NCBI GenBank assembly: GCA_010093605.1
Contig: MU004199.1
Coordinates: forward strand, 937,609 to 1,001,608
Length of the DNA stretch: 64,000 nucleotides
Source of the DNA: Lophium mytilinum
Lineage: Eukaryota; Ascomycota; Dothideomycetes; Mytilinidiales; Mytilinidiaceae
Reading direction: 5' to 3'
Under the pieces are notes generated by a model. That model worked only from the letters and a program-made list of their open reading frames with translations. It ran no database searches and was not told the origin of the DNA. This document shows positions 1-42,808 of this stretch, piece by piece. The first letter of the stretch is position 1. The number at the start of each line of letters is the position of its first letter. The position numbers and the translations under genes are program-made.

Positions 1-641
1 TTCAGTTCTGATGCCTGTGGTATCGTCGTGCCCTATGATTTCGGATGGGTTTGGTGCTTCCAACCCGGGGTTGTCATCAGAACCATCAAAGTCATCCTCG
101 GATCCGGGATCAGCCATCCTACGAGAGCTTGTAGGATTGACATTGCAGGCAGCTCTCGAAGGGGCAGCTTGATTAACGACAGGGAGTGTCAACTCGGCCT
201 GATCGCGCTGAAGAGGTGGCGTCGCAAAATTTTGCCGATGCGGGACTTGAGATTTGCGGAGTGCGCGCTCTCGCTTTTTGAGGACCTAAAACCACAATCA
301 AGGTTAGTGAAGAGACGGAAGGGCTCGTTCATAAAGTGACTGACAAAAATCTGTCTCCCAATGTCCTGGAAAAAGGTCAGCAATTCATACTGAACTCAAC
401 ACGTCAGAGCCGGGATGAGACCCACAAGCTTCCTCTCTTCGATCTTCTCCAATTCATCCTCAAGTTCTGTATCCCGACGGATTAAGTCTGCTTCTCGTTT
501 CTGGAGCTTCTTGAGCCTCGCAGATATCCGTTCGGTATGCCCTCGTATCTTATGCAGCGCTGTTGACTTCTGCTCGAGAGAATCACTCAATTCGGCGAGT
601 TGGCTGCGCAATGTATCATATTGGGTAATAGGGTCTTCCAT
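1..641 (-). CDS. Coiled-coil/zinc-module family protein, copy A (5' part only, runs off left end)
   Basis: Partial gene with its 3' part outside the window. Exon 1 is 641-426 (72 codons, start MEDPITQYD); a 140-bp intron (donor GTGGGT at 425, acceptor TTTTAG at 286) leads to exon 2, 285 to beyond 1, open to the edge. Residues 1-90 form a charged heptad-rich coiled coil that resumes after the splice as VLKKRERALRK. This matches the junction in the three other copies here (ELRKQLREG, AIRKQERT, EKSKRLRAIK). The end of the visible part is acidic (EDDFDGSDDN), like the acidic linker that precedes the first zinc module in the copy at 21173. The zinc modules themselves are not in view. Family assignment rests on start, coiled coil, splice position and linker. 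Function unknown. Confidence 0.7.
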
Positions 642-1678
642 TTTGTAATAAGGAGGGTTTGAATGAAAATTGCAGGGAGATGGAGGACGGGGAAGCCAGA
701 ATCTCTAGAGTCCAAGTCCGGAGAACGGCCAGCATACCTATCTACGCGCTAGCTGTTTAGAAGTGACGTGTAACATTTAGATGAGTTACCGCTCAGCTGC
801 ATAATGGACCCATATTTCATCTGCGCCTCCCGTAGATATGCACTCACCCAGTCGCTGATCCCTAGCTGCTGCTCATGTGTCACTAGAGTCTTCAAGCCAG
901 TGGAAGGCTGACTTCAACTACATATTGGGCTCGGGCGTCTACGCTTTCACTACCGTGGAGTGTCGGAATTCATCGGCTGGTCAGCAAGATGCCCAATTAG
1001 AAAAGGATGTACGCAGCCTCTAGACGTATCTCTTCGTTATCGTTGCGAGTAGGTATGGTGGCAGGATGGCTTTGGTTCCTAAGAAAGGGCTGATTTGGAC
1101 CAATGGGCTCGAGCTCACGGACTTCCGCCCGTGTTTCCCATTAAACCGCCTGCAGACTGACCATAGGATGCGTCTAAGGGCTGTTGGTTGTTGCCTACGT
1201 ACAGCGACAGCCCGTCAGGTGTGTACCTTGTTGGCTTTCCTGTGTAACAAACGCGTTACATAGTGCAGGAAGCGGATTACGCCACCCAACTTCCACATAG
1301 GCGTTTCCAAGGACTAGACGCGATCAAGCAACAGGATCCCGGATAACCGACCACGCTTCGTGCACCGATATCTTAAAGGCAGTATCATTTAACAGTCAAA
1401 TCGCGGTCTCTAGAAGCCCATTCCAAGAGAGGAAGTTTTCTGATTGCAGGTTGCCTATAGAACCTTACCACCCCGTTGTCTCAAACAACTTGTTTCGGCA
1501 CCGTGTAAGACCATCAGGATCAAACTAGCCCAAGGATTTAGAGATCCCAAACAGTTCGACAACTTGCGCGACAACGCCGCTACAACTACCCCGTATCCAA
1601 CCCAATCCAGTGGGTCCAAATCTCAAGACATCTCCGCTGCACAATTCTTCCCAGTCATAGACGCCTAGAATGCGCGCG
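642..1678. other. Intergenic stretch, no supported gene
   Basis: About 1 kb between two minus-strand genes of the same family. Short open frames occur but none has a plausible start context, splice continuation or recognisable domain. It should hold the 3' region of the upstream copy B and the promoter of copy A. No repeat or RNA gene was recognised. Confidence 0.5.
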
Positions 1679-3610
1679 CTAATGCTGATTGCATACGTGC
1701 CCACGGAAAAGTGCTTGTCGAGCCTCAATGTCATCATGGCCGTAAAAGCAATAGCCGTTATCGTAGGCCGCACAGTTTGTGCTAAAGACCATCGACAAGC
1801 AGGTCGGGCGGGCGACGTGGTCGTGGGTAGCGCACTGGTTATCGTGTGTATCAAGCTATTGAGATGGGTAGTTAGATAGGACGTTCGGTGTTTGATTGGA
1901 TTTGCGACTTACAGTGCACACCTTGATGCCCATGCAGTTGCCGCCGCATGGATGTCCAGAAATGGTGCAAGGACAGTACAACATGAACGGATCAAATTGA
2001 TCAATGTCGAAGCTTGGCATCTCGAAAGTTTGGACCTCGTCGATGTCTTGAGGGATGCTAGGATCAGGGGTCTGAACGTCCGAGCCATGCTCGGGCATGC
2101 TGCGACGAAGTCGCTTTGACTGGCGACGAGTTTGCGATGAGCCAATCATAGTGCCCGTGCTTCCATCACCCGCATCAACGGCCGCCTTGCCGTCGCCAGA
2201 GCCATTAGTTCCCATTTCCACATCCTCAGAGGGCTCCTGAGCTTTGCTGAGTTTATCAGGGTCCTCGAAGTACTTGACTATGTAATCGTTAGCCTGTGGT
2301 CACAACCAATTCTCGGGGCGAACGTCATGCATACCTTTGTACCCTTCCGCGCCTTCGACTTTGAGCCTTTCCACCTCTTCCTGCGTGAGCTTCCGATACG
2401 TGCACATCTGGATGGCCCATTCGTTCCTGGTCAGAATCGGATCCTCGAGATCCTGGTAATACTGGCTATGGGTGTTTCGGAGATGCGCAATGAAACCTTC
2501 TACGCCCTTGTAGAATCTGAGGCTGGCAGAACCATAGCAGTTCGCGCCGCATAGACAGCAGCGCAGTTCGATCATCGACCCGTCGGAGAATCTGACAATC
2601 GTTGGTAGCCCATCAACTATGCCTAGTAGCTTGACTGGCGTGTCAGCTTCCTCCACCTCCTTTGCTTCGATCTTGTCGGTAGTCTTGCTCCGAATCTTCT
2701 CGATAGCCACGGCGCCGGGAAGGCCGTGGCAAAGTGCGCGTATCTCCATGGGAGACAACTGGCGGATAGCACATAGACGGACTACCTCATCGTCGGGAGT
2801 TATGCCCTTTCCGTCTGTTTCGGAGATGTCTGCGACCTTCACGTCATGGCAGTGCGCCAAATGCTTCCTCATGCCTAGGGTGCCGTTGATATAGCTTCCG
2901 GTTCGAACAGTCGTGATCGTGTTACCACCACATATATAACATCTCAATTCGTACCAGATGCCCTTAGCATAGACAACGATGCCGCACGCCTTGAGGTAGG
3001 CTCCATTCTGGCTGCGGGTGACGAATTGAATGTCCACGGGGAATTCGCTTTGCTTGTCACTCATTGACTTCTTACGAGTCGGCTTGTCCGGACTAGTCGG
3101 TGGCGTGAAGCCTGCAAATCCGCCATAGTTCCCGTCCTGTTGGCGGCCATGTTGAACTATGCTGGAGCCGTACAAGGGTGTCGAGTGCACAGTCAAAGAC
3201 AAATGCCGGCCCTCTCGAAGCTGCTTACGCAGTTCCTAGAAACGAAACACCGTCAGAATTGAAGCGCGAAAGACAATGACGCTGACGACAGAGCGCAAAT
3301 CAGACTAGCTGTCCCATGCGTTTGCACGCCCTCATCACCCTCTAAGCCTCCCCAGACGGTGGCGTCGAAGAAGCAATAAGAGAGCCACAGAGCAGCGATC
3401 TGACCTCCATTGGAGCCACTGATCCATATGGCGCTGTGAATTGGGGCGGGTGTGACTTACGAATTCCCGCAATGACAGCTGCTCTAGCTCATCCTCGATG
3501 AGCGATTGCTTCTGAAAAGTCTCTTGTCGCAGTGCTTCCAACTCGGCCATCTTCTCCTGCTTAATGCCAAGGACATTGGAAAGCTCCTGCTGTACCCACG
3601 TTGAATCCAT
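1679..3610 (-). CDS. Coiled-coil, two C2H2-like modules, CCCH-like finger; family copy B (apparently intact)
   Basis: Four exons: 3610-3461, 3235-2335, 2277-1913, 1834-1679; the phases fit exactly and give 523 residues. Introns begin GTAAGT, GTATGC and GTAAGT; the second has a CTAAC branch point and ends ACATAG. Residues 1-60 are a coiled coil. Module 1 has C149-x2-C152-x22-H175-x4-H180; module 2 has C276-x2-C279-x21-H301-x4-H306. Each is introduced by an ELRC motif; the first is followed by an RQLSPMEIRALCHGLPGA tail and the second by a related tail ending GAEGYKG. A basic/acidic linker follows, then CPCTISGHPCG (452-462), then a CCCH-like finger C484-x8-C493-x7-C501-x3-H505. The zinc ligands suggest nucleic-acid or protein binding, but I do not recognise the family. 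It is the best complete copy in the window and a reference for the three damaged or partial ones. Confidence 0.78.
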
Positions 3611-6583: not shown

Positions 6584-7369
6584 TGTGAATGGAGAGAAAC
6601 TTGAATTGTAGCAATGGGTATGTGAAGGAGAGTCGCCACGCTACTGAATGTTCTTGAGCAGACGTTAGCAATGATGGAGTGAGTCACCAATTGGTTTCGA
6701 ACCGTGGTTGAGTATCAATTCACCGGAGTCGGTGTCGTGTCAGCTTACCACAGGACTGGTATAGGGAAGAATCGTTCGTCCGCACTCCGCCGGGGTGTTT
6801 CCACTGCTGAGGGCTGCACGGTTCCGTGTGTGTGCCAGCGCCAGCTATCCAAAGTACCGCGCACGAGCCCAACGATCAGCAAGCTGCCGATGCATGTACC
6901 GCAAACACCGGTCCGAATATCGAGCGAACAGGCGGGTCTGGGGGATATGGGGGGATATGGGGGGGTTTGTGTTGTAGTGTTGGAGTGGAGAGATTTCGGA
7001 GTTTGAATCGGAGGTCAAAGAATGACGCCGATCGGGCCGCTAAAGACGGGAAAAGTCCTGCAAAGTGTGGGGTGCGCTGGCCCTGTCGCCCACGTCGAAT
7101 AAACATGACAGCAATCTTTGGGCGTCCAGGGACCGCTTCAGCCATCAAGACTCATTGGCTCCCATGTTCAGTGTGCCTGGAATGACCCCGCCATTCTCGC
7201 ATTCGTGAAGAGCACGTGATCAGCCGGGATGCCAAAAACAGACTCCCGAATCCTCAACATCGTCACATTCAAACACCACAATTAAACCACACAACGCATT
7301 GAACAACAGCAACGCATTGGTACAAGATCTGCTCAGCACTGTAATTTCCAGCCCGTCTAAATAAGCATA
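6584..7369. promoter_or_regulatory. Bidirectional promoter between MET13 and the TIM-like gene
   Basis: Divergent 786-bp intergenic region. A CACGTG E-box at 7213-7218 reads GATCACGTG on the minus strand, the core of sites bound by Cbf1-type bHLH factors that control methionine genes in yeast. It lies about 150 bp upstream of the TIM-like start and about 630 bp from the MET13 start, so which gene it serves is unclear. A short G-rich tandem (GGGGGATAT twice) lies near 6942-6962. The regulatory reading is inference. Confidence 0.35.
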
Positions 7370-8140
7370 ATGACAACCGCCACCACTCCCTACCGCCGCC
7401 TCGTTGGCGTCAGCCTCAAAATGTACTACGACCTGACCTCCACCCTCCGCTATGTCCAAGGCGTGCTCGAGCTCGACGGTCTCGCCTGGAATTACCGCGT
7501 CGACCTCTTCGTCATTCCCGATTTCGTGTCCCTCGCCGACTCCGCGCGCATTCTCGAGCCCTCCTCTATAATCCTTGGCGCACAAGACTGCTTCTGGGAA
7601 GACTCCGGCGCATACACCGGCGAAGTCTCGGCTCGCACCCTCCAGCAAGTCGGCGCGCGCATTGTCGAAATCGGCCATGCAGAGCGACGCGCAATATTCA
7701 AAGAGACGGACGCGCAGGTTGCGCTGAAGGCGGGTGCGGCGGCGCGGAATGGGTTGATTCCGCTGGTGTGTATTGGGGAGCGGACGCATGGGAATATAGC
7801 ATCAGCGGCGGTGGGAGCGGCGGTCGAGGAGTGTAGGACGCAGGTTGAGGCAGTTCTAGCCGCCGTGCCAGAGGAGGCTGAGGTGATTCTGGCGTATGAG
7901 CCGGTGTGGGCAATTGGAGCGAAAGAGCCTGCGGACGCAGATCATGTTGTTAACGTAACGAAAGAGGTTAGAGCGATGGCAAAGGGCAGGAAGGGGGTTA
8001 CGAGGATAGTATATGGAGGTAGTGCGGGACCGGGGACGTTTGGGAAGATAAAGGACGGCGTGGATGGTTTGTTCCTAGGGAGGTTTGCGCATGATATTCA
8101 GAATTTGAGGAAGGTCATTGAAGAGATTGGTGAGTCGTAA
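7370..8140 (+). CDS. Triosephosphate-isomerase family protein (paralogue, probably not the housekeeping TIM)
   Basis: Single exon, 256 residues, the usual TIM length. The TIM-barrel catalytic set is present: Lys in GVSLKMYYD (about residue 17), His in EIGHAERR (about 103), Glu in AYEPVWAIG (about 182) and the phosphate-binding YGGSAGPGTF. The active-site lysine motif is GVSLKMYYD rather than the GGNWKMN of classical glycolytic TIM. In family knowledge, such variants occur in TIM homologues that isomerise tetrose phosphates such as erythrulose phosphate, so that is the more likely activity class; the exact substrate is inference. Start context CATAATGAC, 786 bp from MET13 and divergent from it. 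Cytosolic by absence of any targeting signal. Confidence 0.85.
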   Translation: MTTATTPYRRLVGVSLKMYYDLTSTLRYVQGVLELDGLAWNYRVDLFVIPDFVSLADSARILEPSSIILGAQDCFWEDSGAYTGEVSARTLQQVGARIVEIGHAERRAIFKETDAQVALKAGAAARNGLIPLVCIGERTHGNIASAAVGAAVEECRTQVEAVLAAVPEEAEVILAYEPVWAIGAKEPADADHVVNVTKEVRAMAKGRKGVTRIVYGGSAGPGTFGKIKDGVDGLFLGRFAHDIQNLRKVIEEIGES

Positions 8141-8275
8141 TCGATATTAGTAAGTTGAAAAGTGCTTTGAATTTGACTGGCGTACGTTGTTTTCATGTGT
8201 ATATGTAAGTAAGTAGGTAGGCAAGTATGTTCCAGGTTGTCTCAAATGCTCTCACCAATCAAACGGACCCCAACA

Positions 8276-8661
8276 GGAAAGTGTTCACGACACTCTCTGC
8301 CAAGAGTTGCCAGGAAGAGAAACTCCGCAACTTCGTTCTGCCGTCGCCGAGAAAAGATATTTCCACGATCTCGAGCCCACCGCACCCTTTTAATAGATAG
8401 CTCCACAACCACACCCCGGACCAGGAATCTGACACCGGGAGGTGATTCGCACGGTTTACTACTATTTTTAAGGGGCTTTTTAGGGGTTCGTCACCTCAGC
8501 TCGTTGACATAGAGGGGGGTCTACAGGACTCCACACTTTTTAAGCTCTTTACAGCTGCCAAGAGTTGCCCAAAGAGGTAGTCCGCGATTTCGTTCCGCCG
8601 CCGCCGCTAGATAGATTCTCGTGGGTTTAAGCGTCCTGTACCCTTTTCAACGTATAGCTCT
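8276..8661 (+). repeat. Diverged direct repeat of about 135 bp, two copies
   Basis: The units at about 8276-8410 and 8526-8661 share CTGCCAAGAGTTGCC, TCCGC.A.TTCGTTC.GCCG and CACCC or TACCC-TTTT...TA..TAGCTC in the same order. They are about two-thirds identical by eye and about 250 bp apart. The second copy ends exactly where the MULE transposon is inserted. No coding potential was recognised; the remaining bases up to 8668 hold nothing else I can name. Confidence 0.5.
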
Positions 8662-8668
8662 ATAAGTA
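8661..8668. repeat. Left target-site duplication of MULE (TATAAGTA)
   Basis: The 8-bp TATAAGTA at 8661-8668 is repeated exactly at 11521-11528, directly flanking the inverted-repeat element. The 8-bp length fits the 8-11 bp duplications of Mutator-like elements. Confidence 0.7.
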
Positions 8669-8803
8669 GGATAAGCCTAATTATTACCCCCCTTTTTACT
8701 ATATATTACCCCCCTTTTTACTCTATATTACCCCCCCTACTTTTAACTAGCTCCGGGCCCGTATTTATATTATTCTACTAATTAAACTTACTTATTTAAC
8801 TTT
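8669..8803 (+). repeat. Left terminal inverted repeat of MULE
   Basis: About 130 bp, inverted relative to 11389-11520. It contains three subterminal units of the form TATATTACCCCCCTTTTTAC at about 22-bp spacing and the unmutated GC-rich core TAGCTCCGGGCCCGTATTT. Differences from the right copy are almost all transitions. Confidence 0.8.
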
Positions 8804-11388
8804 ATAGAAGGCTGCGTAAAATAGTAAGTATATATTATAAAATAGAAAGACTATAGTATACTAGCTATTAGAAGTCTATTTACTCTATCTATTAAAGCTA
8901 GTCTAGAAGCGGAAGGTACCTAGATAGCTACTATTTAATTACTAGCTAAAAGAAATACTAACTAGGCCTATATACTATAGCCTTATACCTAAATATTCTC
9001 TAGTTTCTTTACTATAGGTAGCTTCTTTCTTAGGTATAGATATAGGGGTATTTTTAGGGCCTAGTTAGCTATTAGGGACTAAGAAAATTAAGCCCTAAGT
9101 AGCTATTAGAGTATCTATCTATCTAGTAGAGTAATTTAGCGCTATATTTATAAACTATATAGAATTATTTAATACCTAGATAGTCTACTTAATCTCTAGC
9201 GTGCCTATAGAGACGCCTATTATAGTAATTTAGCTACTCTATATTCTAATCTATATTAATTAAGTTAATTTCTATCTACTTATAATACTTACTACTTATT
9301 TTATATAAGTAGTAGCCTTTTAAGCTTACTAAAGATATAATATTCCTCTATATAATTCTAGCCCTCTACTATATTATTATACGCGCTAAGCTATACTTAC
9401 TAGATTCTATTAAGTATTATATTTAAATTAAGATAGATTATACTAAGTTATATTTATAGGTATATAAATATAGCTATAGCTATAGCTACGCGTAGTTTAA
9501 TAAGATATAGTAGAGCCTATTAGCCGCCCTTTATAGCGTAGTATAATAGCTAGAGCCTTAATAAAAAGAAGAGAATCTATAGATAAATCTATCTTATTTA
9601 GAATAGGCTACTTAAACTACTAGTACTAATAAATATCCTCTAGAATAACTATATATATAGAGGTTATAGTAGTATATAGTTTTTAGTATATTTTATAATA
9701 GTATAGTATACTATATATCCCCCTAAATATCCCGTTATATACTAGGTTAAAATTATTAGCTTTTACCTTCTTAATCTAGCTAGTAAGTAGCTTTAGGCTC
9801 TACTTAGTAACCTTCTAAAGAACCTTATTAAACTTAGAAATCTAAATACTATACTATAGAGCTCTATACTAGTAGCTAAGCTTATTCTTTAGCTCTATAC
9901 TCTAGTAGTAAATATATTAAGAGAGAAGAGTAATAATATTATAGAGGTTACTAGTTAAGATCTAAAGATAGAACTTAATACTACTATTTAAGCCCTCTAG
10001 GCGTAAGATTATAGTATTTCTAAAGTATAGTAGAAAAGTAGTATAGTACTTAGTAATCTACTATTAAAAAGGCTACTACTCTTTAGTAAGGTAATTAACT
10101 AGATCTTATTTATATATATAGTTTTCTTCTATCTTCTTCTAGATAGCTTTAAACGCGAGCCTTATAGGTTTTATAAGGTAGAAATTAAACTTATTAATAA
10201 ACTTCTTTCTATTTCTCTAAATAGCTTCTATCTTAGCTACTATTAAATCTTAAGAGGTATATACTAGAGCTTATATATTAATAGTATTAGTTACTTTCTA
10301 CTTATCTACCTTCTAAATAGCTATAGTCTTACTAGTAATATTCTTTTATATGTGCTATTTATATAGAATTTAAGAAATAGTAGAAAAGAACTTAGCTAGT
10401 ATATTTTTAAGTATAAGCTCTTTATCTATAATAAAAACGCCTAGTAAAACTCCTAGGCGCTAGTATATTAGGTAAAGCTATTATACTATAAAGATATAGT
10501 TCTTTTCTTCTTCTTCTAGAAGGAAATAATAGCTAAGCTTATAGTTCTTACCCTAATTATTAATACTATTAATATAGAGGAGCGGCATCTTAAAGTAATT
10601 AGTTTTATAGGTATAATTAAGAAGAATAATATCTAGATAGTATTAAAATATCTTAATACTCTAAGAATATATAAAGTATAAGTACTTAACTTAGTTTACT
10701 TTATCTAGCTTATATTTATAGTAGTAATAAGTATCTAGGTTATTACTACTATATTTCTTAAGTACCTTAAGTATAGCCTAAGTTAAAGTAAGGCTCTAGA
10801 GCTTTATTTTCTTCTACTATATATGCTTATTATAGAGGTTCTTTATAGTTATATCTTTACTTTTAGCTAAGAGGTTATTAAAGATAGCTTCTATAGGCGT
10901 GCCTCTATTAAGCTAATTATAGATAGTTTAAATAGTTTTTTTATTAAGATCTTAATATATAGCTAGAGTTCTATTCTTAGTATTATACGCCTTATAATTA
11001 TAAGCTAAAACCTTAATTTTAAAGAGCTAATTATCTTATAGTAGGTCTCTTATAAAGGCCTCTTTTATAAGGTAATTAGACTTCTTTAAATAGGTTAGGC
11101 GCTTTCTATTAGCTAGCTTATATTCTTCTATATATTTATATTAAACTATTACCTTATATATCTAGAGAGGTATATACTTATCTATTTTTTTATTATATTT
11201 AATAATTATATAGCCTTTCTACTTTATCTATATATTAATAGACTTTATACCTTCCTCTATAGAGGCGTAGAGGCCCTAGAGGGGCAGCTATAGAGGTATA
11301 GTAATAAAGTAATAAAGTAGAGAAAGTAGTATTAATATATTAAGAGAGAGAATATATAGATAATTAAATTTAAATTAAGTATAAGAGG

Positions 11389-11520
11389 GCTAAGTAAGTA
11401 AGTTTAATTAGTAGAATAATATAAATACGGGCCCGGAGCTAGTTAAAAGTAGAGGGGGTAATATAGAGTGAAAAGGGGGGTAATATATAGTAAAAAGGGG
11501 GGTGATAGTTAGGCTCGTCC
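11389..11520 (-). repeat. Right terminal inverted repeat of MULE
   Basis: Reverse complement of the left terminus, with the same C-rich subterminal units (here GGGGGG-rich on the plus strand) and the same AAATACGGGCCCGGAGCTA core. It is slightly less mutated at its outer end (CGTCC, GGTGATAG) than the left copy. Confidence 0.8.
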
Positions 11521-11528
11521 TATAAGTA
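11521..11528. repeat. Right target-site duplication of MULE (TATAAGTA)
   Basis: Exact copy of 8661-8668, marking the right edge of the transposon insertion. Confidence 0.7.
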
Positions 11529-13423
11529 TGCATTACACCACAGATCTAACAATAAAGGGCACTTCCTTAGCTAGGAAGTATGATTAAGGGTATCTTGGAG
11601 AAGTGATTGCTCTATTTTGTTGCATTAGAGGGGTTCCTACAGCGCTCTACACCTTTCAAGTCCTCTCCAGCCACTATAACCAGCAAGAATCGGGACGAAT
11701 ACAGGACATGTGCGAAATGCATATCGATTGCGAGTTATGCCCCCTATGCGCGGCAGCAGAGTCCAGGGGGTAGCTAGTCTTAAGTAGACCAACTCCAACT
11801 CCTCAGCCTTCGTCCCACAATTTCTAAGCCCAACATTACATCTGACATATGCATATATTTAAAGGCTACACTAACTAGGATCCCAGGGTTTCAGGCGTTC
11901 ACACAGCTAACCGCCTTAAATAGTCTCCACATGAAGCGAGTAACTGACTGGCCATGCTCACTAAACACTCCCGGGACCAACCCAACGGCTCACGTTCTAG
12001 GCACTGTCTCGTACGTACTGGTACTCACCAAGCTACTCGCTGGGCAATTTCTACAGTACCCTGCCCTTTTGGCGCAGAGAGTTCAATCTCAGGAACGGCA
12101 AAGCGATCTCAGCAAACACCACCAGGACCACCCCAATCACGCACGCTGCAGTCTCAAGCCTGCATTAGCACCCACCTAGCTGCTCGGCGATTCCACCAGC
12201 GCCCTTCCATGCACGTCCCAATCCAGGAACAGAATCGTTCCCTGGCCCAACCCCAGTCCGTCTCTCTACCCACGCCCACGGAGTCTAGCCCTACCTCGCC
12301 TCGACACTCACTCCCCAAACGGCTGGCGAGCCAAGTCCGCAATTCGCAATCCCGTATCTCAAACGCCTACCCGCCCGTGTCTCAACGCTTCACGAACAAC
12401 TCATCTCCGCACATCAACCGTATTCACCTGGCACATCCTAATCTCAACCCCCTTCTCCCTCTTCATCCCCTGGCCTCACCGCACCATCATCTCCGAACCG
12501 CAGAACACCACCAATCTGCATCCCCATCAAACCCTGACCCTTATTCCCGTGGGTGGGCGTTCTCCAATACAATCTAAAAATACCCCCATCCCCTTACCGA
12601 CCCCCCGTCTCACTCCACTCCACCACACCCCATGATCCCACACACCCCGTATTCGCTGCCCCATCCCCTTCGTCACACAACACACCATCTAGACGTTGCC
12701 CGGCACACTGCATAAACAGTCTCCTTCGCTGCATGCACGCGATGCGCCTCCTCGTCATCCCTTTCCCGCGATCCCGCACCGCGTGTCGCCCCATCGCATC
12801 GCCACGGCGCGTGTCCGTGCCGGCTACCCGGCGGCGGCGGCGGCGGCGCGCGCTGCAGCTGTTGCGGGTGCGCTCAGCCTTGTGGGATGGAGGGGGCAGG
12901 TGGTGCCTGGGTGAGGCTGGTGGGAGATAGCCCGCCCACCCAGGGATCAGTGAGGGAGTCTGGGGGAGGTGGGGATAGGGATGGTCCCAGTCTCCATTTG
13001 CCAATGCTACTAGCGGCTATCATTGCTTCTGTGAGGGTTTCAGGAGTCTGGGGGTTGCGGTTGAGCGCAGTGGTGGTGGATTGAGCGATGGTAAAACGGG
13101 TCACGTGAAAACAGGTGAGAGAGGTTATGATCATAAGGTAGCAAACACCAAATTATTTGTTGTCTCTAGCTACATCGCAAACTCATAGATCAAGTTCGTG
13201 AGAGATCAAAGCCCGTAGGCGGCCGTCGAGGAAACGGTTCTGGGAGGCCGCGGAAGTCGCCCAACCTCAGATAACCCCCCTATCCCTCCCGAACACCCAA
13301 AACACCCGCTGAAATCCCTCATTAAAAGTGATGACAATCAGAAGACCCCCCATCCCCCCTTTTCGCTTCGCTTCGCAAAACAGGGACAGAACAACAAAGA
13401 CACGAAAGCATGAAAACATGTCG
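11529..13423. other. Gene-free stretch, partly C-rich
   Basis: About 1.9 kb with normal base composition. The plus strand is strongly pyrimidine- and C-rich from about 12100 to 12750, which opens long frames lacking any domain (for example 11954-12577); I do not accept them as genes. A (GGC)n-like run lies at 12830-12850. The right end is the 3' flank of the bZIP gene. Confidence 0.5.
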
Positions 13424-26585: not shown

Positions 26586-26590
26586 AAAAC
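26586..26590. repeat. Left target-site duplication of nested element (AAAAC)
   Basis: AAAAC precedes the nested left LTR. AAAAT at 33742-33746 follows the right LTR and differs by one C-to-T transition, as expected after RIP. Confidence 0.65.
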
Positions 26591-26790
26591 TATTAGGTTT
26601 ATAGCTAAGAAAAGAGTTATATTTCTATTAATAAGGTTGCATAGAAAGAAGAGAGGCTCTAGCTACAAGCCTACTATATAGTTAAGTGCGCGCTAGAAGA
26701 ATTCTTAGCCTAAAGATTATATAACGTCCGTGCATATAATAACCCCTAACCTTAATAACTACTAAGAGAATACTAAGAAATAATATAATA
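26591..26790 (-). repeat. Left LTR of nested element (3' LTR)
   Basis: 200 bp, TATTAGG...TATAATA, matching 33542-33741 with few differences (for example GCATAGAAAG vs GCGTAGAGAG and CTAGAAGAATTC vs CCGAAAGAACCC), all transitions. The near identity of the two LTRs indicates insertion not long before RIP stopped both. Confidence 0.88.
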
Positions 26791-29700: not shown

Positions 29701-32700
29701 AGGTGCTAGGGCCGTTATATATACTAAATCCTAAGACTTTAGATTAGAATATTCTGTACTATATAATAAACGCCGTTTTCTATTTATTACTAGATTTAAT
29801 ATATACGCGATTAAAGGTAGAAATAATATTTAATTTAGTATACTATTTAGCCTTATAGAGGCGGTTAAGCGTTTTCTAGATAATTAGAATTAGGTATTAA
29901 TTCTTTATAGTAATAGCGTTAAGGCTATAATAATTAATATAGAACTAGTAGGTTCTATCTAGTTTCTTAATAAGAAGTACAGGCGCGTGCGTAGAAGAGT
30001 TGCTATTCTTAATAAAACTATTACCTAGTAGCTTCTAGAGTTTATTATAGATAATACAGTTCTTTTCCTCTAATACTGCTCGGGTCTTATATTTAAGTAG
30101 TAGCGCGTCTAGCTATAGAAGAATTATATAGTTATAGTTATAGTATAGGGGTAGGTTTTCTACTTCTTATTATAACTATATATTAACCTAAGAATAGAAA
30201 CGCTTATCTAACTATTTCTAAAGTTTATTAGATAAATACATCCTTTATTCCTTTATAAACTTATTATATTTATTAACTAATAAGGTATAGAGCTTAAGTG
30301 TGCCGCCCTCTTCTAGAACGCTTATAACGTATTCTATTATAGGTATATTAAATAAGAAGTTATCTAGTATAGAGATAAACTCTAGCCTATAGATCTAAAT
30401 AAGGTCTTTAGACTTAGCGCGGTAAATATAGCGTTCTATAGAACTAATAGATATTATAAATAGAAATATAGACTAAAGTTTAACTAGCCTAGTAGGTTAT
30501 ATAGCGCCCTTATAGAAAATCTTTATAGGTACGCTATTACTATAGTAGTATAGATTACAGCATTATAATTAATAGAAGTAGAAGCTTTTCTTAATAAAGT
30601 TAATTTCTAGATTATAGGTTTTATACTAATCTATTCTAAGAACTATAGGTATATAGCCTAGGTCTATAATATAGTAGACTAGTTACTTTATATAGAAGCC
30701 TATAGTAATATTAATAATTACTATATATATAATAGATTATAAGAAGTTAGAATTATTAATATATATTAAGTAGTAAGGGGAATTAAGAGGGATATAATAG
30801 ATTTTATATTTACGCGTAAATAATTAATTAATAAAAAAGAATATTATACTATTATTAGAGAGAGAGTAAGTATAAATAATTTAATTACTATCTAAGGCTA
30901 TAGAATAAGAAAGTAAGTACTAACTACCTTTCTTTAGCTAGAGCTTTATAATATCGTGCTAAGTATATATAATAGCTGTGGCGGAAATATAAAGTTCTAG
31001 CTAGCTCTTATTATTCTTAATATACTCTAGCACCTTTTATAGCTAGAAAGGGGTATTAAACTAGGGTAGAGGTTTTACTACCTTCTTTATTTAGTACTTT
31101 TTAGGTGTTCTATATTTAGTACCCCTATAGCGGCTTTTATATAGTTTCTAGTTCTTTCTTTATAGTTCTAGAAGGTTATTAGTAGAAACTAAGTTACCAC
31201 ATTTAGAGAAAGTTAGTATAGAATAGGGGGAAGATAATAGGGTTAATAATAGGGTTAATAATAGGGTAGATAATAGGGTAGGTTTATAATTAATTATAAC
31301 GGGTCCTTAGGCGCGACTATACTTAAGAACTACTTATTTTTCTAGCTAGAAAACGTAGTATTAGTGGCGCGTAGAGAAAGGCCGCTAGTTATCTAGATAG
31401 AGAAGTTTTAAAGAGGGCAGTTATTATCCACTATATAATAACTAATGCAGCGGCAGTAGTTATAAGCGCCCGCTATATATATTCTCTTCTTATTAGCTTT
31501 AGTAAGCTTACTAATACTCTAGATATATACTAGTTTATCTACTAGATTTATAGCGTGCAAGCATTATTCTATACTAGCCGCGGCTATAATAGTAGATGCG
31601 CGCGGAGTAGTTAATAAAGTTATAGAAGAAGTTATTATAGTTATAGTTATAGTATTAGTATCTATAGTAGGCGTAGATAAGTAGCCGCTATAGCTGCAGC
31701 CACGGCCGTAAGTTAATTAAGTAGGCGTAGTTAATGCCGTAACCTAACGGGGCTAGAAGATAAGAATATTATACTTCTTAGCTTACTAGAAGGCTATATT
31801 CTATATATCTATAGTATAAATATATTATATAAAGTTATTAAAGTAATTATATATTACTCTATTAATAAGCTTAAATTATAGGTATAGTATAAGACGTATC
31901 TTAAACTAATAGATAAGCTTAGCGGCCCCCCGGTTAAGATTACTAGTAATATCTAGAAAGCGGTTATAAAATATAGTAAATAAATTATTATCTATATAAA
32001 GAGTTTCTAGCTATATTAGGGCCTTAGCCTTAATATTATATTTACTATATCTATTATCTAGAGAATAAAGGGCGTTAATCTTATTATAGATAACCTAATT
32101 ATAGCAGTATACCTAAATGCGCTTAAAGGGTTTATCTAAGAGGACGCTCTTAATATAATTAAGCTTATAGTTATCTATCTTATTAGAAAAGGCGTAGTAA
32201 ATCTTAGTAAGGACCTTACTATACTAGATTAAATATGCGTCTAGGTCCTCTCCATTAAATATAACCGGGTCCGGCCAGCAGTAGGTGCGCTAGTAGAACG
32301 TTAATAATAGTAGTTAAGTATATAGTAGAGTATAGCTATTATAGTAGCTATTATTATAATATTAGTTATCTAATTATTTATTATATAGAGAGGCGGAGCG
32401 GCGGGCTTAGTTACTACCGCTGTAGAGATTTATATATAGAGTAGAAGAAGTATATATAGGCTCTATATAGGTATTATTATTATAGCTATTATAACTAAAG
32501 TTATTAGGCCTATCTAGGGGTTATTCTCCGGCTCTACCGTTTATCCGCTAATAGTTAACGTTATTATTGCGCCGCTTATTATTATTAAAATAAACGGGTT
32601 CTTTAGACGTTATCTTAGCAGGTTTAGACTATTACTATTATTATTAGAGGTTGTATATGTAGGCTTATATAGCCTAGAGGCTAAGCTTAGAGTTATTAAG

Positions 32701-33541
32701 CTAAATCTTTAAGTCCCTAAGTTTCTTATTTATATTATTAAACTTTTTATAAAGGTTTATAGATATATATTTCTATTTCTCTAAGCCGGCACTATAGTTA
32801 TTAATATAGATATTAGTACTCTTAACTAGCACGCGTAGCAGTTTAAAGGCTTTAAGCGGCTTAGAGTTTACCTATTAATAGAACTTAAATAAGCTCTAGA
32901 ATATAGTACCTTCTAGCTTTATAGTTAGGTCCTTAATATTATATAAATTTAGAAGAAGGTTAAAGGTAATAGGGCTTTTAGTATTCTAGAAGTCTACTTT
33001 AATAGTATAGAAGTTCTAGGTATTAAGCGCCTCTACTATAGCTATATTAAGTAGCTTACTAACGCACTTACGCCACTTAGTTAGACAGTTTTATTAATTC
33101 TTTATGCGTAAGGCTAAGCGGTTAAGGTTTACTAGTAGTACTTTCTTATCCGCTTCTTTAAAGATGTCGCCCTAAGTATTATTCTATATCTTCTTAATAT
33201 TCTAGTAACTAACTCCCCCCTTACCTTATAGAATGTTAGAGTTATAGGGTTACCTACCGGGCGTATTATTAAGGTGGTTAGTTATACCTAGTTATTTATA
33301 GTAAGGCCTAGGCTTTATATAGTATAGAAAATAAGAAGAGAGTATTTAAGTAAATAAGTAAGTAAGTAAGTAAGTAAGAAAAGGAAATATATTAGTTTTA
33401 AGGTTAGTAATTAAGTAATTATATAGCTAAATCTTAAAGCTAGCAGCACCTATATAGGTGCGCGCGTATATAGCGGTATAGCTATATAAAAAGAAATTAA
33501 GGTTTCTATATTTCTAGGTTTTAAAGAATAACGCAACCTAG

Positions 33542-33741
33542 TATTAGGTTTATAGCTAAGAAAAGAGTTATATTTCTATTAATAAGGTTGCGTAGAGAGA
33601 AGAGAGGCTCCGGCTATAAGCCTACTACATAGTTAAGTGCGCGCCGAAAGAACCCTTAGCCCGAAGATTATGTAACATCCGTGCATGTAATAACCCCTAA
33701 CCTTAATAACTACTAAGAGAATACTAAGAAATAATATAATA
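33542..33741 (-). repeat. Right LTR of nested element (5' LTR)
   Basis: 200 bp partner of 26591-26790. It is slightly less RIPped, retaining CCGGC, GTGCGCGCCG, CCCGAAG and CATCCGTGCATG. Confidence 0.88.
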
Positions 33742-33746
33742 AAAAT
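33742..33746. repeat. Right target-site duplication of nested element (AAAAT)
   Basis: Partner of AAAAC at 26586-26590, with one C-to-T difference. Confidence 0.65.
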
Positions 33747-36700
33747 ATTCTTAAAAGACTATTAGTTTAGTAAATATATTTAAGCTTATAATCTAGATAG
33801 TTCTTCTCTCTACTAAGAATTCTATATAGAATGTTATTAGCAGGGTAGTAAGAAGACTTATTTATTCTAAGATAAGTTTAGCTTTACTTTTAGAGTATTT
33901 TAAAACTTAGCTAATATCTATTATAGAAGAATAGACTTTAATAGCTTATTAGAAGACTACTAGGGCTTATATTTAATAAGGTTACTATAATATTACTAAG
34001 TTTATATCTTCTCTTTATAACTAAGAATCTCTTAAGAACCTAGCTAAAAATATAGTATACTTAGCCTTAGCTATATAGCTACTAATAGAATTAATTTAAA
34101 GAAAGACTACTATACTACTATATAATCTAGGTATTTCTTATACTTCTAAATCTCTAATAGCTTAATATTACCTATAGGGCTCTAGTAGTACTTCTACTTA
34201 GGCTTCTAGTTTAAGATCTAGCTTCTAGTAATTATCTATAGCTGTATTAAGTTTAGAAAATATAGCTACTTTAGATTCTAGCACTTAAGGTCTAAGGTAA
34301 TACTCTCTAACCTCTCCTACTTAGCCTTTAACTTCTCTAACTTCTTTAATCTTTTATTATTCTTCTTTAGGTTCTTTATAGCGCTTTTAAGAGCCTACTT
34401 CTAATATACTATTAAGCCGCCGCTTATCTTAGTTATTTATTAGTAATAATAATAACTCTACTAGAGAGACCTCTTTAAACTCTACTTAGTATTAGATAGG
34501 CTCTTTAAATACTATTCTCTAGAAGAATAGGGCTAGTAAGTATAGCTAAAATATATTAACTTAGAGCGCGCCTCTAAAATAGCCTTAGAAGAATAATAAT
34601 AGCTATTCTAGTAGTAGTAGTAGCTATAGAAGTTCTAGTAGAAGAAGTTCTAGTAGTAGAATAGCTACCTAGAAGAACTAAGAGTATATTAGCTTAGCTA
34701 GTATTAATAGAAAAGCGTTAATTTTCCCTCCCCTTCTAGATATAAGAAGGGTTAAGTATAATAGAAGTATAAGCTTAGCTTAGTTAATCTCTAATATAGA
34801 TTCTTAAATTTATTATCTTTTTAATTCTCTAAAGATAAAATATAGCTAAATAAGTAATAATAAAGAATTAAACGCTTAAATCTAAATTAATAAAGGAAAT
34901 CTAGGTAATAAATATATAGAGTTCTTCTAATACTCTATTAGCTTAAGATAGAAGCGCTATTTAAGCTCTCTTGCACTTTCTTCCGCGCAACTCTATATTA
35001 AGAGCTTGGGTGGGTTATATTATAGGTGCATTAAAATTACTATTTAAATCTAACTTATAATTACTACTAGTATTCTTATTATCTTTAATATCTATTATAC
35101 TAGTATTACTACTAGAGAAGCTCTCTAATTATATATTAAAGCTAGTATTCTTATCTAAGAACTTATTATTTATATGCATTTTAGTATTCTTAGCTCTTAA
35201 GTTAATTCCTTTATTCTATAGCTCTGCAGCATTATTAGTTTAAATAATAGTATTACCCCTCGGCCGCATAATAATAGTATCCCTATTATACTTATTATTA
35301 TCTTAGTGCGCAGTATTAGATAATTAAGTAGTAGTATTTACACTCTTAGGTATTCTATTACTATTTTAAGCTATTTTTAATAGTTCTCTATTATTAGTAT
35401 CTATAGCTAGCACTAATGCATTATTAGGTTATTCTATAGGTGCTGCGTAATTACTAGTTCCCTATAGAATATTAAGCTTATCTTAACTTATCTTTAGCTT
35501 ATATATATAAACTTTCTAATAGGTATTTATAGTAGTTTTACCTGCATCTTTATATTATATAACTATAAAGCTAGTAACCTATACTAGTATAATAGTTAAT
35601 TAACCCTTCTTAGGTTTCTTTTTCTTAGTAGCCTATTAGTCTCTCTTAAGAACTCTCTCTTTAAAATCTCTTAGTATTTAATATAGCTTTAGTTTAGGCA
35701 GTTTCTAAGCATTCTTCTCCCCTTTCTAGAAGAGCTCCGCGCCCTTATACTGCTATTTTAATTAATACTTAGTAATCTTCTAATTCTATTCTACTTTAGA
35801 AATTATAGTAAACTTAGACTATAGCTTTCTATTAGTATTATCTGCATCTAATACATCTATAATAGCATTATTACTAGGTTTAACTTCTTCTTAATATATA
35901 GTATGCTCTTTATTAGTATTATTAAAATCCTCTTAGTTTTAAAGTACTTAGTTATCTTCTAATATATTATTAGAATGTTCTAAGCTATATTTAGAGTCTT
36001 TTTAGTTCTAAAACTTTATATAAGTATTAATGCGTGTATTTACTAACCTATTACTATAAATAAGGTTCTTTAATACTTAATTAGTAGGCGTTTAAAGTAT
36101 ATAGATACTAAGAGAATAAGTAGTAATAATCTTAAATAGACTAAACTATTTTACTCTAAATTTCCTCTTAACCTTATTTTAAAGAAGTATCTAGAAACTA
36201 ATCTTCTATTAAGTAACTAGATGCTTCTTAGATAAAGGTTATAGATTCTATAGGCCTACTATAATTACTTTCTTTAGTAGCTAATCTTCTACTAGTGCGC
36301 GCGTGTATTAAACTTTTCTAATGCGGGCTAAATAATACTTTAATTTAGCTTTTTTATCTGCAGTCTTATTAAGAGCCGGTACTAAAGTATTATTAGATAC
36401 TTAAGGACGTCTACTATATATAAGGTAGTAGGGAGTATAGCTATAGAAGGTATTTTAAGTATGTATTATATATATTATAGCTAGTAACTAGATATTCTAT
36501 ATAGCTATATCTTAATTAATTATTAGCTTTATAAGAATATTCTCTAAGACTCTATTAAGCCTCTCTATCTTACTATTTACCTAAGAGTAATATAGCATTA
36601 TAATATTATAGCAGGTCTTAATAAGCTTTTATAGTACTATAATAACTTTAGAAAGAAAGTTTAAACTATTATTAGAAGTAAACGCTACTAGAGAACTATA

Positions 36701-39700
36701 CTAGTAGTAGATTCTTTTATAGATAAATATTACTATAGTCTTAGCTTAAGTATTAGAAAGCGCTGCAGCTTTAGGCTAACCTATAGTGTAATTAATAGCA
36801 GTAATAATCTAGTAATTCCCATAGATTAATTATAGTAATCTACTAATTAAATTAATGCCCTATTTATTAAATAGATCTTAATCTTTAACCTAATAAAATA
36901 TTAGTTTATAAATAATCTTTCTTTTCTATACTAGCTAGTATAAGGTATACTTATAAGCGTATTTATTAGTATTATAACTTATTATTAGCTACTAGCTATA
37001 TACTTATAGGGCCTTCTACATGCCGTAGTATATAAAGTAGCCTAGCTAGTAGGTCCTATTAAGAATCTATTAATAATAGGAAGGTATAATATATAGTATA
37101 GTATTCTTAAGAGTATATAGATTTAGATTACTATTAGGTTTATAAAAGTAATAGCATAGTTCTTCTTTTAAAATTATAAAGTTTTAATATAGGGATAGAT
37201 AGATTTTTTAGTAGTAAAGCTAGTATTATTTTAATTTAGCCTCTAATAGCTATTTAGAGAGAGTAGGCTTAAGGCCTATTATAAGAAACTTTTTTAAATC
37301 TTTAATATACTCTATATTAGAATCTTTATTCTTAGAGAGGGCTATAAGGCATTCTTAGATAAAATTAGAGCGCCTACTAATTGCGTCTAGTACTATTATA
37401 AGGGCTTCTAAGTAATACTATATTATGGGGTTATACTGCTAGAAATTCTTAATCTATTAAGTAAGCCTTAGTAAGGCTTTCTTAGTGGTTTATAGGTATT
37501 ATAATAAGTAGTAATTAGTTATAATTATTAATTCTTTCTCTTAAATATAGTGTTACTAAATTCTAAGCGCTTCTTTAATTGCTAGAAGTTCTTTTTTATA
37601 AACTAGATAGTTTAATTTAGCTTTATTAAGCTTTTAACTGTTAAATATAATAGAGTACTACTTACTATCTTCTTCTTATTAAAGAAGGACTATTCTAATA
37701 GTAAAATTAGAAGCGTCTATTTTAATTTAAAAGGGCTTTAACTAGTTAATAAGGGCGAGCACAGGGCGTTTAATAAGCTTTTACTTAAGGGAGTTAAAAG
37801 TAATTTAATAGCTAATATTCTATATAATAGCTTAGTACTTTTTTTTTTATATTATAGCGTTACTTTTCTTTAGAAGCTTATAGAGAGGTGCTAATATATA
37901 GGTAAAGTTCTTAATAAACTTTTAATAGTATATTACTAGTCTAATAAACTATTAGACCTTATAGATATTAGTAGAAATAGGCTAATACTAAATAGTATCT
38001 AGTTTATTAGTTATTAGTTTTATAGTTCTATAAGAAACTATATAGCTATAGAACTTAATAGTTTCTTAGGTAATTAAGTACTTATTAGTTTTAGTAAATA
38101 GTTATTTCTTTCTAAGAGCTTTAAATAATAATTAGAGGTAGTTAAGATGCTCTTTTAATATTTCTAAAAATACTATAATATTATCTATATAGATAAGCAT
38201 AAATTAATATAGGTATAGTTATAAGGTATTATTTATAATAGCTTAAAAGGTAGTAGAAGCGTTATAGAGGCTAAAAGATATAACTAGAAATTTAAATTTC
38301 CCTTTAATTATATTAAAAGTAGTCTTCTAGATATCTAATTAATAAACGCGCAGCTAGTAATATCTAGAGGTTAAATTAATCTTAGTAAAGAACCTAGCCT
38401 TCCTAAATAACTATAGGCAGTTATTAATATATAGTAGAGAGTAGGTATTCTTTTAGGTTACTAGATTAAGTGCTCTATAGTTAATATATATTTACTACTT
38501 ACTATTTAGCTTTAGAATAAAAAGAACTAGAGATTTCTAGGTACTAATAGACTCTTAGATAAGGCCCTGTTCTAGTAGCTTATAGATCTATTAGGTCTAT
38601 TTCTCTATTTAATAATATAAGAGGCGGTATATAGTATTATTTACCAGCTTTATATCTCTAGTATTAATTAAATAGTTATATCTATACTTAGGTAGTAGAA
38701 TATTAGAAAGAATATTATAGAAATAAGGTCTATACTCTTTAAGAAGCTCTTAAAACTTCTCTTATATAGAAGTAGTAATATAATTAATTAGGGGTAATAA
38801 ATTCTTATCTTCTAATAGTAGATTAGTGCCGGGTTATAGTACCTAATCTAGTATTAGTTTATTAGAAGCTTTTATAATATAAAGGTAAGTAGAATTAAGC
38901 TTATCTACTAAGAGCCTCTTATACTTTTAATAGAATATTGCATTAATAAAACCCTAGTATTCTAGTTTAGAAAGACTAAGGTCTATAATAGGGCTTAATA
39001 TATTAAGCTAATAAGCTACTAGTTTAATCTTTAAGTTGCGGCTAACCTGCGTTTATAAGGTAACGGAATTAGTAAAGAAGTTAATAATAGCTTAGTATTA
39101 CTATAGCTAGATTATACTAAGAATATATTAATACTCTTTAAGGTCTAGAATATATATAGTTAGAGTATCTAATAGTATATAGATCTTAAATAGAATCTCT
39201 AAGGCTTTTATACTAATTATAGTTACACCTAAGAAGAGTTTAACTACCTTAGAGGCTATTATTTTAATATTTCTTAGCTAATATTAAGTATGCTTTAATA
39301 ATACGTAGATAAAATTAGCGCTATAGTTAATTAAGAAGGTAGTTCTTTTTTAATAGTTAGATAGTTCTAAAGTTCCCTTATATTCTAAAAGATATTTACC
39401 TAGGGAGTTAAGGTAGTAGATTCTTTCTTCTATTAATTTAATAATAATTTAGTTAGAAGAATTATTAAAGGGCGGCTAATCCTTTTCTATTATAAGTTTA
39501 TAAAAAGTAGAAGTCTTATCTTTTAGATTAGTTAGTTACTTTAAGGCTACTAACCCTCCTAGTTTTCTAATAGCTTCTTAGCTAGCTAAGTATAGTTACA
39601 TTTAATATAGCCCTTCTTACTATAATTATAGTACTTATATATATTAGTATTCTATTAAGTATTACCTTTACTATATCTACTATAGCCTTAACCGCGTTTT

Positions 39701-41731
39701 TAAGATCTAGTAGTATTTCTACCTTTAAAGGTATTAAGTTTAGTATTATCTTTAGTATTTAGATATTTATATTTATTAGAATTAATATTAGTTTCTTAGA
39801 AGTAATTATTATCTAATTCTTTATTAGCCCTAGAGATAGTATTAAGGCGGCTCTAATAGTCTCTTATTCTCTTATACTAGGAGATCTAATGCTTATTAGT
39901 AGTAGCAACCTACACTATCTATTTATTAAAATTAGAAGGGGCCTACGCTTAGGCGTTAATATAAAACTTAAGGCTAGGTTTTAAATCTACGCAGGCACGT
40001 TAATATACTTTAAGATTAAATAGAGCTATATTAAGAGAGTATATATAAGTAGCCCTAATAAGCTTATTAAAGAACTAATAAGTACTAGTTATCTATACTA
40101 TTTTATTAAAGCGGCGTTAGCGTTACTCTAGTGTATCTACGCTCTTATAGCGGCGGCTAAAGGTAGTAAAAAACTAATCTAATATAGTAAACTTAGTATT
40201 ACCTTAATAGTGCTATTAAATATCTTAGTTCTATTAAATAGCTATAGTTCTAGCTATATAGCTACCGGCTAGCTAAATCTTTTAAGTTTCTAGTATCTAC
40301 TAGTAAACCTATTAATAGGCGTCTACTTATATAGTAATAAAGTTATATATTTAAACTATCTAGATAGGGTATATATTATTATTAACTTCGCCTAACTATA
40401 TAGCGGGAGTTCTTATAAGAACTTTAGGTAGCGCTATTAAATAAGGTTCTCTTATAGCTAATATTCTTTTAAAGGCTTATTAAAGCTTTTATATAGTTTA
40501 TTTTAATATAGGCTTATTATAGTCTAGTATTAAATAATCTAAGAAAGTATTAGATAATAGACCCTAGAAGTTAGTAGTACTTTAAGAAGTAGGCTACTAC
40601 TAGAAGTTATCTAATATATTCTTAACACGGGTATAGTAATTAGGAACTATAGCTTATAGCTATTCTAGTATAGTAGTCTACTACTATTATATAGAAGAAG
40701 CTAATATAGAACTAAAGAGTTCTAGTCTCTAGTAATCTATTATATACTCTATTATAGGGGCTTAGAAGTATTAATAGCTATCTAAAGAAGGTATAAATAA
40801 TAGCCCTTAATAGGTAAGCCCTAGATTATAGGCTAGGGTACTACTATAAATAATTAGAGAACCTTAAACTAGTAGCTTAATAGGTTCTAGAGTAGTAGCC
40901 TACTTAGTCTATAAGGCTAATATTAGATTAGATAGATTATAAAATATAGTACTAAACTAAGAGAGCCTTTAGAAGAGTTCTTAAAGGTTAGAAGGTAATC
41001 TATTAGAATAATAATGTCTATTACTAGATATAAAAGAAAGCTAAGGGTTATAGAATATCTAAGAATAAGAAAGAGTAGAAAAGAGTTAATAACTATAATA
41101 TAATTAAAGTAAAGAGTAAGAAAAGAGTACTAAGATAGTAATATTAAGTTTCTTTCTTAAATACTTTCTAATATTCTATTAGAGAGGGAGAATTCTTAAA
41201 AGGACTCCTCCGCCTTTTTTTTATAATTAACTTATAAGGATTTCTAATTACTATATAATTATTAGGCTCTATTAAGCTATAATATTATTCTTCTTACTAT
41301 CCTGCTATTAATCTTGCTTTAGTAGCTAATAGAACGCGTAGTTAGTTACGTAGAAGTATTAAAAGGGATAGAAAAATCCTATAGTAATATTCTAGCTAAG
41401 GGCTCTTTAGATCTATACTATTTAATTTTTATAAGAATATTTATAATAGGTAGTTATACTATAACGCCGGCCTAATACTAATTAGGGGCTATTATTAATA
41501 GTTATTATTAATTACTAATTAGGTTAATTTTTAGAAACTATTAATACGGCTTAGTATTATTATAATAATCTAAAAATTCTACTAATTATAGAAGCTAATA
41601 TCTTTTATTATTACTAAGAGTTAATTATAAGAATATAGCCTTAGCTAGCTCTATACTATTAAGTTTAAGAACCTAATAGCCCTCTAAGGAGGCCTTAAAG
41701 GCGGCTAGAACTATAACTAAGCTACTAGATA

Positions 41732-41934
41732 TAATATTTCTAATTATATAATATAAAAATTTAGAGAATAATAGATATTAATTCTATATAGAAATCTAGC
41801 TAGGCTATATATATATTAAAGAGGCCTATATAGGCCTTAATTATACTAAATCTATATAGGAAAGCGTTTCTATAGTAGATCTATATATTACATGCACAAT
41901 ATTTAAATATTAACCGTATATTAAGAATTCCACA
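41732..41934 (-). repeat. Right LTR of outer Gypsy element (5' LTR)
   Basis: 203-bp partner of 25051-25253. Its inner end is RIPped (TAATATTTCTAATTATATAA where the left copy has TGATATTTCCGATCACGTGA), while its outer end is less mutated (CATGCACAAT, AACCGTATAT, ATTCCACA). Confidence 0.88.
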
Positions 41935-41940
41935 TATTTG
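41935..41940. repeat. Right target-site duplication of outer Gypsy element (TATTTG)
   Basis: Partner of 25045-25050. Normal-composition DNA resumes immediately after it. Confidence 0.75.
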
Positions 41941-42083
41941 CCCCACTCTTCTCGCTTCGCGAACTCTTTCGTGTGTGTTGTGGGATTTGCTTCCTCCTCG
42001 ATCACCACACTTCCATCACCACACTTCCATCACAGCACTTCCATCACCAACATTTAGAGGTGACAAGATCTTGGGTAGTCACC

Positions 42084-42808
42084 ATGGAGGACGTCCCGAC
42101 CGAAGAAGAACTGATCTTGATGAGGGAGCTGGCCGAGCTGTACGAGGCCAGAGAAGCCAACGCTGAGGGTTTTCGAGAGAACAAGGATCAATTCTCGAAG
42201 GGCCACGGTACCTTTGCAGCTATACAGCAACGTTACGACAATGAAACAAGGCGTAGGCTCACTCTGGATGATGACATCGAATCAGAAATATTCGTAAGTT
42301 CTCCTTCCGCGCTACAACTTGCTTCCAGAATCTGATCTTTGGGTGTGCGAAGGAGAAGAGCAAGCGCCTTCGCGCCATCAAGGTCTCCAAAGACCGCTCT
42401 TATTTGAGGCCATTCAACAACAAGTCTTCGCCGTTCAAGTTCAAGTCCGAGCCAGTGGACAGGGTGCAAGCGCACTCGACTGTTTCAGATGGGGTCCAGG
42501 CCTCTGTTTCCGAGCATCCGACCGAGTCACTAGCCCAGTCAACCTCTCCCGATACTTGTAGACGTGGCCTACACTCCAGCATGCAGGCTACCCCAGAGGC
42601 AGAGTGTTTCGGTAATACACCTATTCTGCGCTCTACTAGCGCTAGGAGTGGCCTTGTCAATCCAAATAGGTACCCTCCATATCTTGCGAAATACCCTCAT
42701 GTTTTAATGTATAGTCAGTCTGGGCACACTAAATTATTACAACTCGGCTCCAATCCTGCGCGGTTAATACCACTGGGAGGAGTAGCCTGGCTAATCAGCT
42801 GGCAGTGA
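42084..42808 (+). pseudogene. Truncated family copy D (coiled coil and linker only)
   Basis: Exon 1 is 42084-42293 (MEDVPTEEELILMRELAELY..., coiled coil, donor GTAAGT); a 59-bp intron ends GCGAAG at 42352; exon 2 is 42353-42808, for 221 residues. The coiled coil continues after the splice as EKSKRLRAIKVSKDR, at the same place as in copies A-C, and a Ser-rich linker follows. Near the end RYPPYLAKYPHVLMY matches RSYLPKYPHVVCL, which in copy C directly precedes the first zinc module. Beyond about 42715 the similarity stops and the frame ends 30 codons later with no zinc ligands. It lies 150 bp from the right LTR of the Gypsy element. It could still be expressed as a coiled-coil-only protein, but looks like a broken copy. 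Confidence 0.68.

Follow-up and report, generated by a model that had tools for sequence, protein, structure and literature searches.

The 64,000-nt stretch of the Lophium mytilinum genome analyzed here (the window) corresponds to positions 937609-1001608 of contig MU004199.1 (C19) and carries members of one gene family: three genes and a fourth copy of which only the front remains. The three genes combine a charged N-terminal exon with Cys/His modules, a cysteine-rich CPC box and a terminal CCCH-like finger. Coordinates without a contig prefix are those of the window. Gene B (1679-3610, minus strand) is intact and consists of four exons encoding 523 amino acids with no internal stop. Its first exon (3461-3610) begins with MDST and encodes a charged, helical N-terminus, and exon 2 (2335-3235) holds both modules: module 1 (2693-3025; ELRCYICGGN ... 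HLAHCH ... GLPGA) and module 2 (2336-2641; ELRCCLCGAN ... HLRNTH ... GAEGYK). Exon 3 (1913-2277) encodes a linker with a basic patch (QTRRQSKRLRR) followed by the box CPCTISGHPCG, and exon 4 (1679-1834) the CCCH-like finger (C-x8-C-x7-C-x3-H), an HxCxxxH-like end and the stop codon. An alternative acceptor for the last intron lies at 1855.

Gene C (21173-23723, plus strand) has five exons and is open except for a single in-frame TAG at 22298-22300, between its two modules, which the preliminary description of the window passes over. In the gene model, a coiled-coil-like exon 1 beginning with MEDP (21173-21358) precedes exon 2 (21413-22709), in which the profile placed module 1 at 21995-22270 and module 2 at 22382-22709; a linker exon (22798-22984), an exon with the box CPCTLSGHPCG (23058-23289) and a last exon with the finger C-x8-C-x6-C-x3-H and a longer tail (23346-23723) follow. 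Genes B and C bore out these features of the preliminary description: the start and charged N-terminal exon followed by a phase-0 intron, two ELxC-x2-C...H-x3/4-H modules with GLPGA after the first and GAxxY ending the second, the CPCT(I/L)SGHPCG box and the C-x8-C-x6/7-C-x3-H finger. For gene A (minus strand), the window contains exon 1 (426-641), with an MEDP start, a coiled-coil-like N-terminus and a phase-0 intron after it, and the first, linker part of exon 2 (1-285). The gene runs on left of the window to C19:936232 (exons C19:938249-938034, 937893-936915, 936845-936695, 936621-936456 and 936399-936232) and is open throughout, with two intact modules, the box CPCSLSGHPCR and a CCCH-like finger (x8, x4, x3) beyond the window's edge. 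Copy D (plus strand) was found to be truncated. It keeps an N-terminal exon that begins with MEDV and is helical by composition (42084-42293), the phase-0 intron and, behind a weak acceptor, a linker that breaks off after the first few residues of module 1 (42353-42808). The module profile found no module in D and there was no C-x2-C...H-x4-H, nor was a CPCT box or finger, both claimed for this copy earlier, seen on inspection of its sequence and gene model.

The four copies proposed in the preliminary description proved to be an undercount. The family is real, larger than four copies, expanded and locally clustered in this one genome (43.18 Mb, 24 contigs), to which all paralogue comparisons refer. 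Protein searches across the genome, together with a scan of 1771 open frames from fetched DNA by the module profile, identified 35 modules across 23 loci, the weakest member scoring E=2.4e-12 and the next match 2.7. Module-bearing loci occur on C19 (11, at 805-1202 kb), on contig C4 (7, at 2349-2430 kb of 2482 kb, two overlapping frames at 2349-2350 kb being counted as a single gene), on C6 (3), on C5 (1) and on C1 (1). Two genes carry three modules, eight carry two and 13 carry one. Three further relatives on C19, namely E2, F' and D, lack a module and have kept the front or both ends, so that the genome-wide count proposed as a check of the preliminary description came to at least 26 loci. 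This is a lower bound, as the genome search scores only the best candidates. Two clusters account for 21 of the 26 loci, 14 lying inside ~400 kb on C19 and seven inside ~81 kb on C4. The seven C4 genes (C4:2349000-2430000) end ~50 kb short of the contig end, and four of them (2350, 2363, 2366 and 2371 kb) share a divergent group of C-terminal modules.

Since a profile will find its own members, hold-out tests were made. A profile of the 21 modules from other contigs recovered 14/14 C19 modules at E <= 4.5e-12 (next match 3.5). In the reverse direction, a profile that took in 13 of the 14 C19 modules recovered 21/21 others, 17 of them at E <= 4.2e-6; the other four, which are C-terminal modules of C4 genes and the most divergent of these, scored 6e-4 to 7e-3 (next match 0.75). 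The best match to reversed sequences was 0.63, and the locus at C19:859 kb, which lay outside our alignment A1, scored 9.2e-15. Protein identities between paralogues were 24-50%, mostly 25-43%, which argues that the copies are old, and the clustering of loci points to local duplication with loss.

Alignment of 34 modules showed four invariant ligands (C, C, H, H) and no other invariant column. The cysteines are spaced C-x2-C in 32 modules and C-x4-C in two, the histidines H-x4-H in 33 and H-x3-H in one. Two positions upstream of the first Cys are aromatic in 31/34 and 30/34 modules, and E-L ahead of the first Cys (26/34 each), N after the second (28/34) and G-x2-G ahead of the first His (28/34, 25/34) are common. 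A conserved C-terminal extension of ~40 residues contains a further Cys (29/34) and an R (24/34). A structure predicted for module 1 of gene C from four window sequences (predicted local distance difference test score, 77) consisted of three strands, a helix at residues 38-50 and then helix, strand and helix; the helix at 38-50 carries the first ligand His and stops two residues short of the second. No clear match to this four-sequence model was present among the solved structures listed, and a sequence search of the PDB with the module yielded no relative (one match, E=1.4).

The most frequent Pfam match of the modules was zf-BED (5/34 at E <= 1, best 6.9e-5). Gene A scored 21.9 bits against PF02892, above the curated cut-off of 20.6, and gene B 10.9 bits (14.3 for its module 2 alone), under it. 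BED zinc fingers have the ligands C-x2-C-xn-H-x3-5-H/C, conserved aromatic residues before the first Cys and a TSxLxxHLxxxH motif. Both the ligand pattern and the upstream aromatics are found in the aligned modules, and their GxxGFxxHLxxxH stretch recalls the BED motif. Unlike BED fingers, the modules have a C-to-H spacer of 15-29 residues and a conserved extension with C..R.L..E, and they occur in up to three copies per gene with no transposase domain found. The BED finger is accordingly the closest Pfam family, with weak membership, a lead to the fold class rather than proof of DNA binding. No Pfam family spanned the whole module or tail in the scans made, which agrees with the earlier remark that no named family with this order was known.

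The C-terminal ends of A, B, C, E1, E2 and F' share 15 invariant alignment columns, of which eight are Cys, and all six show a CCCH-like spacing (C-x8/9-C-x4-8-C-x3-H). None of the six matched a classical CCCH Pfam model at E <= 1, nothing in Pfam scored better than 0.083 (one TEX29 match), and no PDB relative of the tail was found. The tail is interrupted by an intron, and six-frame tail matches among the paralogues were weak. Tail searches of the genome reached no C4, C5 or C6 gene; the evidence for absence there is weak, because the same searches missed a tail-like end of the C1 gene that was seen by eye. Locus F' (C19:928111-929130) has a coil-like start, a CPC box and a CCCH-like tail with no middle module, its first intron being insecure.

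A charged, Pro/Gly-poor N-terminal exon was clear by eye in 18 of the 26 loci (A, B, C, D, E1, E2, F', those on C1 and C5, three on C6, four on C4, and C19 at 925 and 1166 kb) and doubtful in three (C4:2350, C19:806 and C19:863); in the DNA examined it was not recognized by eye for the remaining five (C4:2420, C4:2429, C19:859, C19:1180 and C19:1201). The coiled coil ascribed to all four window copies was only partly borne out by a home-made heptad test, which was significant for A (p=0.006) and C (p=0.004) but not for B (p=0.34) or D (p=0.23). Among 14 N-termini, seven gave p<0.05 (A, C, E1, C1, C5, and C19 at 924 and 1167 kb); values of 0.05-0.10 were obtained for E2, F' and two C4 genes, and of 0.23-0.34 for B, D and C6:354. 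Intron 1 is in phase 0 in all six modelled genes (A-D, E1 and E2) and likewise in the model for C1, the exception being the insecure F' model. The complete series of phases is 0,1,2,0 in A and C, 0,1,0 in B and E2, and 0,2,0 in E1. Basic patches resembling nuclear localization signals were recognized, by eye only, in the linkers of B (SKRLRR), C (KKKRK), A (KRAR) and C4 genes (KRVRFDS and KRVKF).

In paralogue E2 (C19:920522-921888), ~16 kb left of the window, a bromodomain occupies the exon position where A, B and C carry their modules. The model consists of exons at C19:920522-920662, 920722-921379, 921439-921641 and 921706-921888, the predicted junction of exons 2 and 3 (GTACCT donor) having been picked from several candidates. 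The encoded protein begins with a family-like coil and continues with KLRKQLRE at the start of exon 2 (ELRKQLRE in gene B), the bromodomain, a linker, a CPCT box and a CCCH-like tail. The domain matched PF00439 with E=4.8e-16 and 58.9 bits (cut-off 21.7). Its FN aligned with FN in the BET paralogue and YN in BRD4, a position which we take to be the Asn of the acetyl-lysine pocket, so that E2 has both a score above the Pfam cut-off and the pocket Asn position. When the E2 domain was compared with 12 fetched loci of the 15 bromodomain matches in the genome, it was closest to the genome's own BET gene on C6, of the fungal Bdf1/BRD4 class. It is 62% identical over 92 amino acids to the first of that gene's two bromodomains and 34% to the second, and the alignment extends over 143 amino acids at 55%. 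Unlike BET proteins, E2 has one bromodomain rather than two, set between the family coil and the CPCT/CCCH tail. On a plain reading, a copied segment of the BET gene would have taken the place of the module part of exon 2, this being the presumed direction of the swap. Through the bromodomain, at least one member of the family appears to be tied to chromatin; the same is likely, although not certain, for the others.

The presence of a bromodomain in the module exon suggests that the middle exon may serve as an interchangeable targeting unit flanked by constant ends. We therefore favor, with a probability of about 0.48, an expanded fungal family of oligomerizing nuclear adaptors for chromatin or DNA with an exchangeable middle exon, an interpretation drawn from sequence. 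In such a protein, the helical N-terminal exon that most copies have would mediate oligomerization, and one to three BED-like modules would coordinate zinc and engage DNA or a chromatin protein. The CPC box and CCCH-like tail of the C19 group would bind a common partner or RNA, and in E2 the BET-type bromodomain would stand in for the modules. The nucleic-acid-binding adaptor with a dimerizing coil suggested in the preliminary description fits the BED-like core and the E2 bromodomain, with nucleic-acid binding itself still putative. More tentatively, the genes may represent an undescribed multidomain chromatin-adaptor family with fixed ends (an oligomerizing coil and the CPC/CCCH tail), in which duplicates re-aim one machinery through the middle exon, by DNA-reading BED-like modules in most copies and, in one, by an acetyl-histone reader taken over from the BET gene of this genome.

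An RNA-binding regulator that contacts RNA through the CCCH-like tail and CPC box and proteins through the modules would agree with the spacing conserved in all six aligned tails. We consider it unlikely, given that no Pfam CCCH family matched any of the six and that the E2 bromodomain points to chromatin; that tail searches reached no C4, C5 or C6 gene adds a little, a weak point given the missed C1 end. BED fingers are known from hAT transposases and from transcription factors of transposon origin, and the genes could instead be N-termini of domesticated hAT-like transposases, co-opted or relic, and AT-rich blocks with signs of repeat-induced point mutation (RIP) do adjoin C and D. Pfam scans of B, C (as two halves), most of A and single modules showed no transposase domain, including no RNase-H-like catalytic or hAT dimerization domain in B, the C halves or most of A, the other genes having been scanned as modules only. 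Intron positions and phases common to the six modelled genes, and identities mostly of 25-43% (up to 50%), do not resemble a recent transposon burst either, which makes this origin quite improbable.

We rate about equally low the possibility of a fast-evolving self/non-self or genome-defence family, its variability maintained by conflict with transposons or other strains. The clustered, birth-and-death-like distribution (14/26 loci on C19, 7/26 on C4), the truncated copy D, which borders a RIP-like block and has a HET gene ~2 kb away, and the HET-NACHT gene in the window are what such a family might show, but conserved metabolic genes stand among the copies. The preliminary description had raised this role on the basis of neighborhood alone. 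MTHFR, triosephosphate isomerase and iron-type alcohol dehydrogenase (Fe-ADH) genes also lie among the copies, and closeness to HET/NLR genes, assessed for the window neighbors, is not evidence for a conflict role, proximity alone being insufficient. Least probable of all is a set of mostly decaying genes without present function. The in-frame stop in C, the truncation of D and a weak family fragment containing a stop (C19:819764-819901; E 0.008) are countered by intact models for A, B, E1 and E2, by long open frames in other copies (up to 666 amino acids) and by the invariance of the ligands.

The favored chromatin/DNA adaptor can be compared with Drosophila BEAF-32, in which a BED finger binds DNA and a leucine-zipper/BESS region mediates self-association (PMC5021357). 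The comparison concerns how the proteins may work and claims no homology: both would pair a BED-type finger with a self-association region. The order is reversed, BEAF-32 having its BED finger at the N-terminus; the BEAF-32 abstract describes no CPCT/CCCH tail, and the Pfam scans made gave no match to BESS in the family. If the favored reading is true, the family would provide a natural domain-swap series in which extended BED-like modules or a bromodomain occupy the same intron framework. It would also give the modules a testable chromatin role, define two unannotated cysteine-rich domains and offer an example of a fungus with RIP-like mutation that keeps a large, strongly diverged paralogue family.

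Neighbors of the family in the window include MTHFR, triosephosphate isomerase, Fe-ADH and bZIP genes, a HET gene, and a HET-NACHT open reading frame (ORF) followed by a WD40 ORF. The triosephosphate isomerase-family ORF (7361-8140; Pfam 1.4e-56) is a single exon and adjoins MTHFR. Two regions are AT-rich: ~8001-12000 (GC 0.24-0.42, composite RIP index 0.78-1.81) and 25001-42000 (GC 0.24-0.31, composite RIP index 1.16-1.96), the latter with D at its edge. Together with the spliced genes and the HET and NACHT genes, these RIP-like blocks would fit a filamentous fungus. No match to 5.8S rRNA was found in this assembly. To the right of D, an ORF at 43512-44009 that is HET-like by eye is followed by the HET-domain gene (44890-46677; Pfam 2.5e-27), which lies ~2 kb from D and 21 kb from C. 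Two ORFs at 48146-48931 and 52212-53897 have C2H2-like Cys/His patterns by eye, with no Pfam match at 1e-5. At 57863-62359, the HET-NACHT ORF immediately precedes one made up of very regular WD40 repeats, an NLR-like arrangement.

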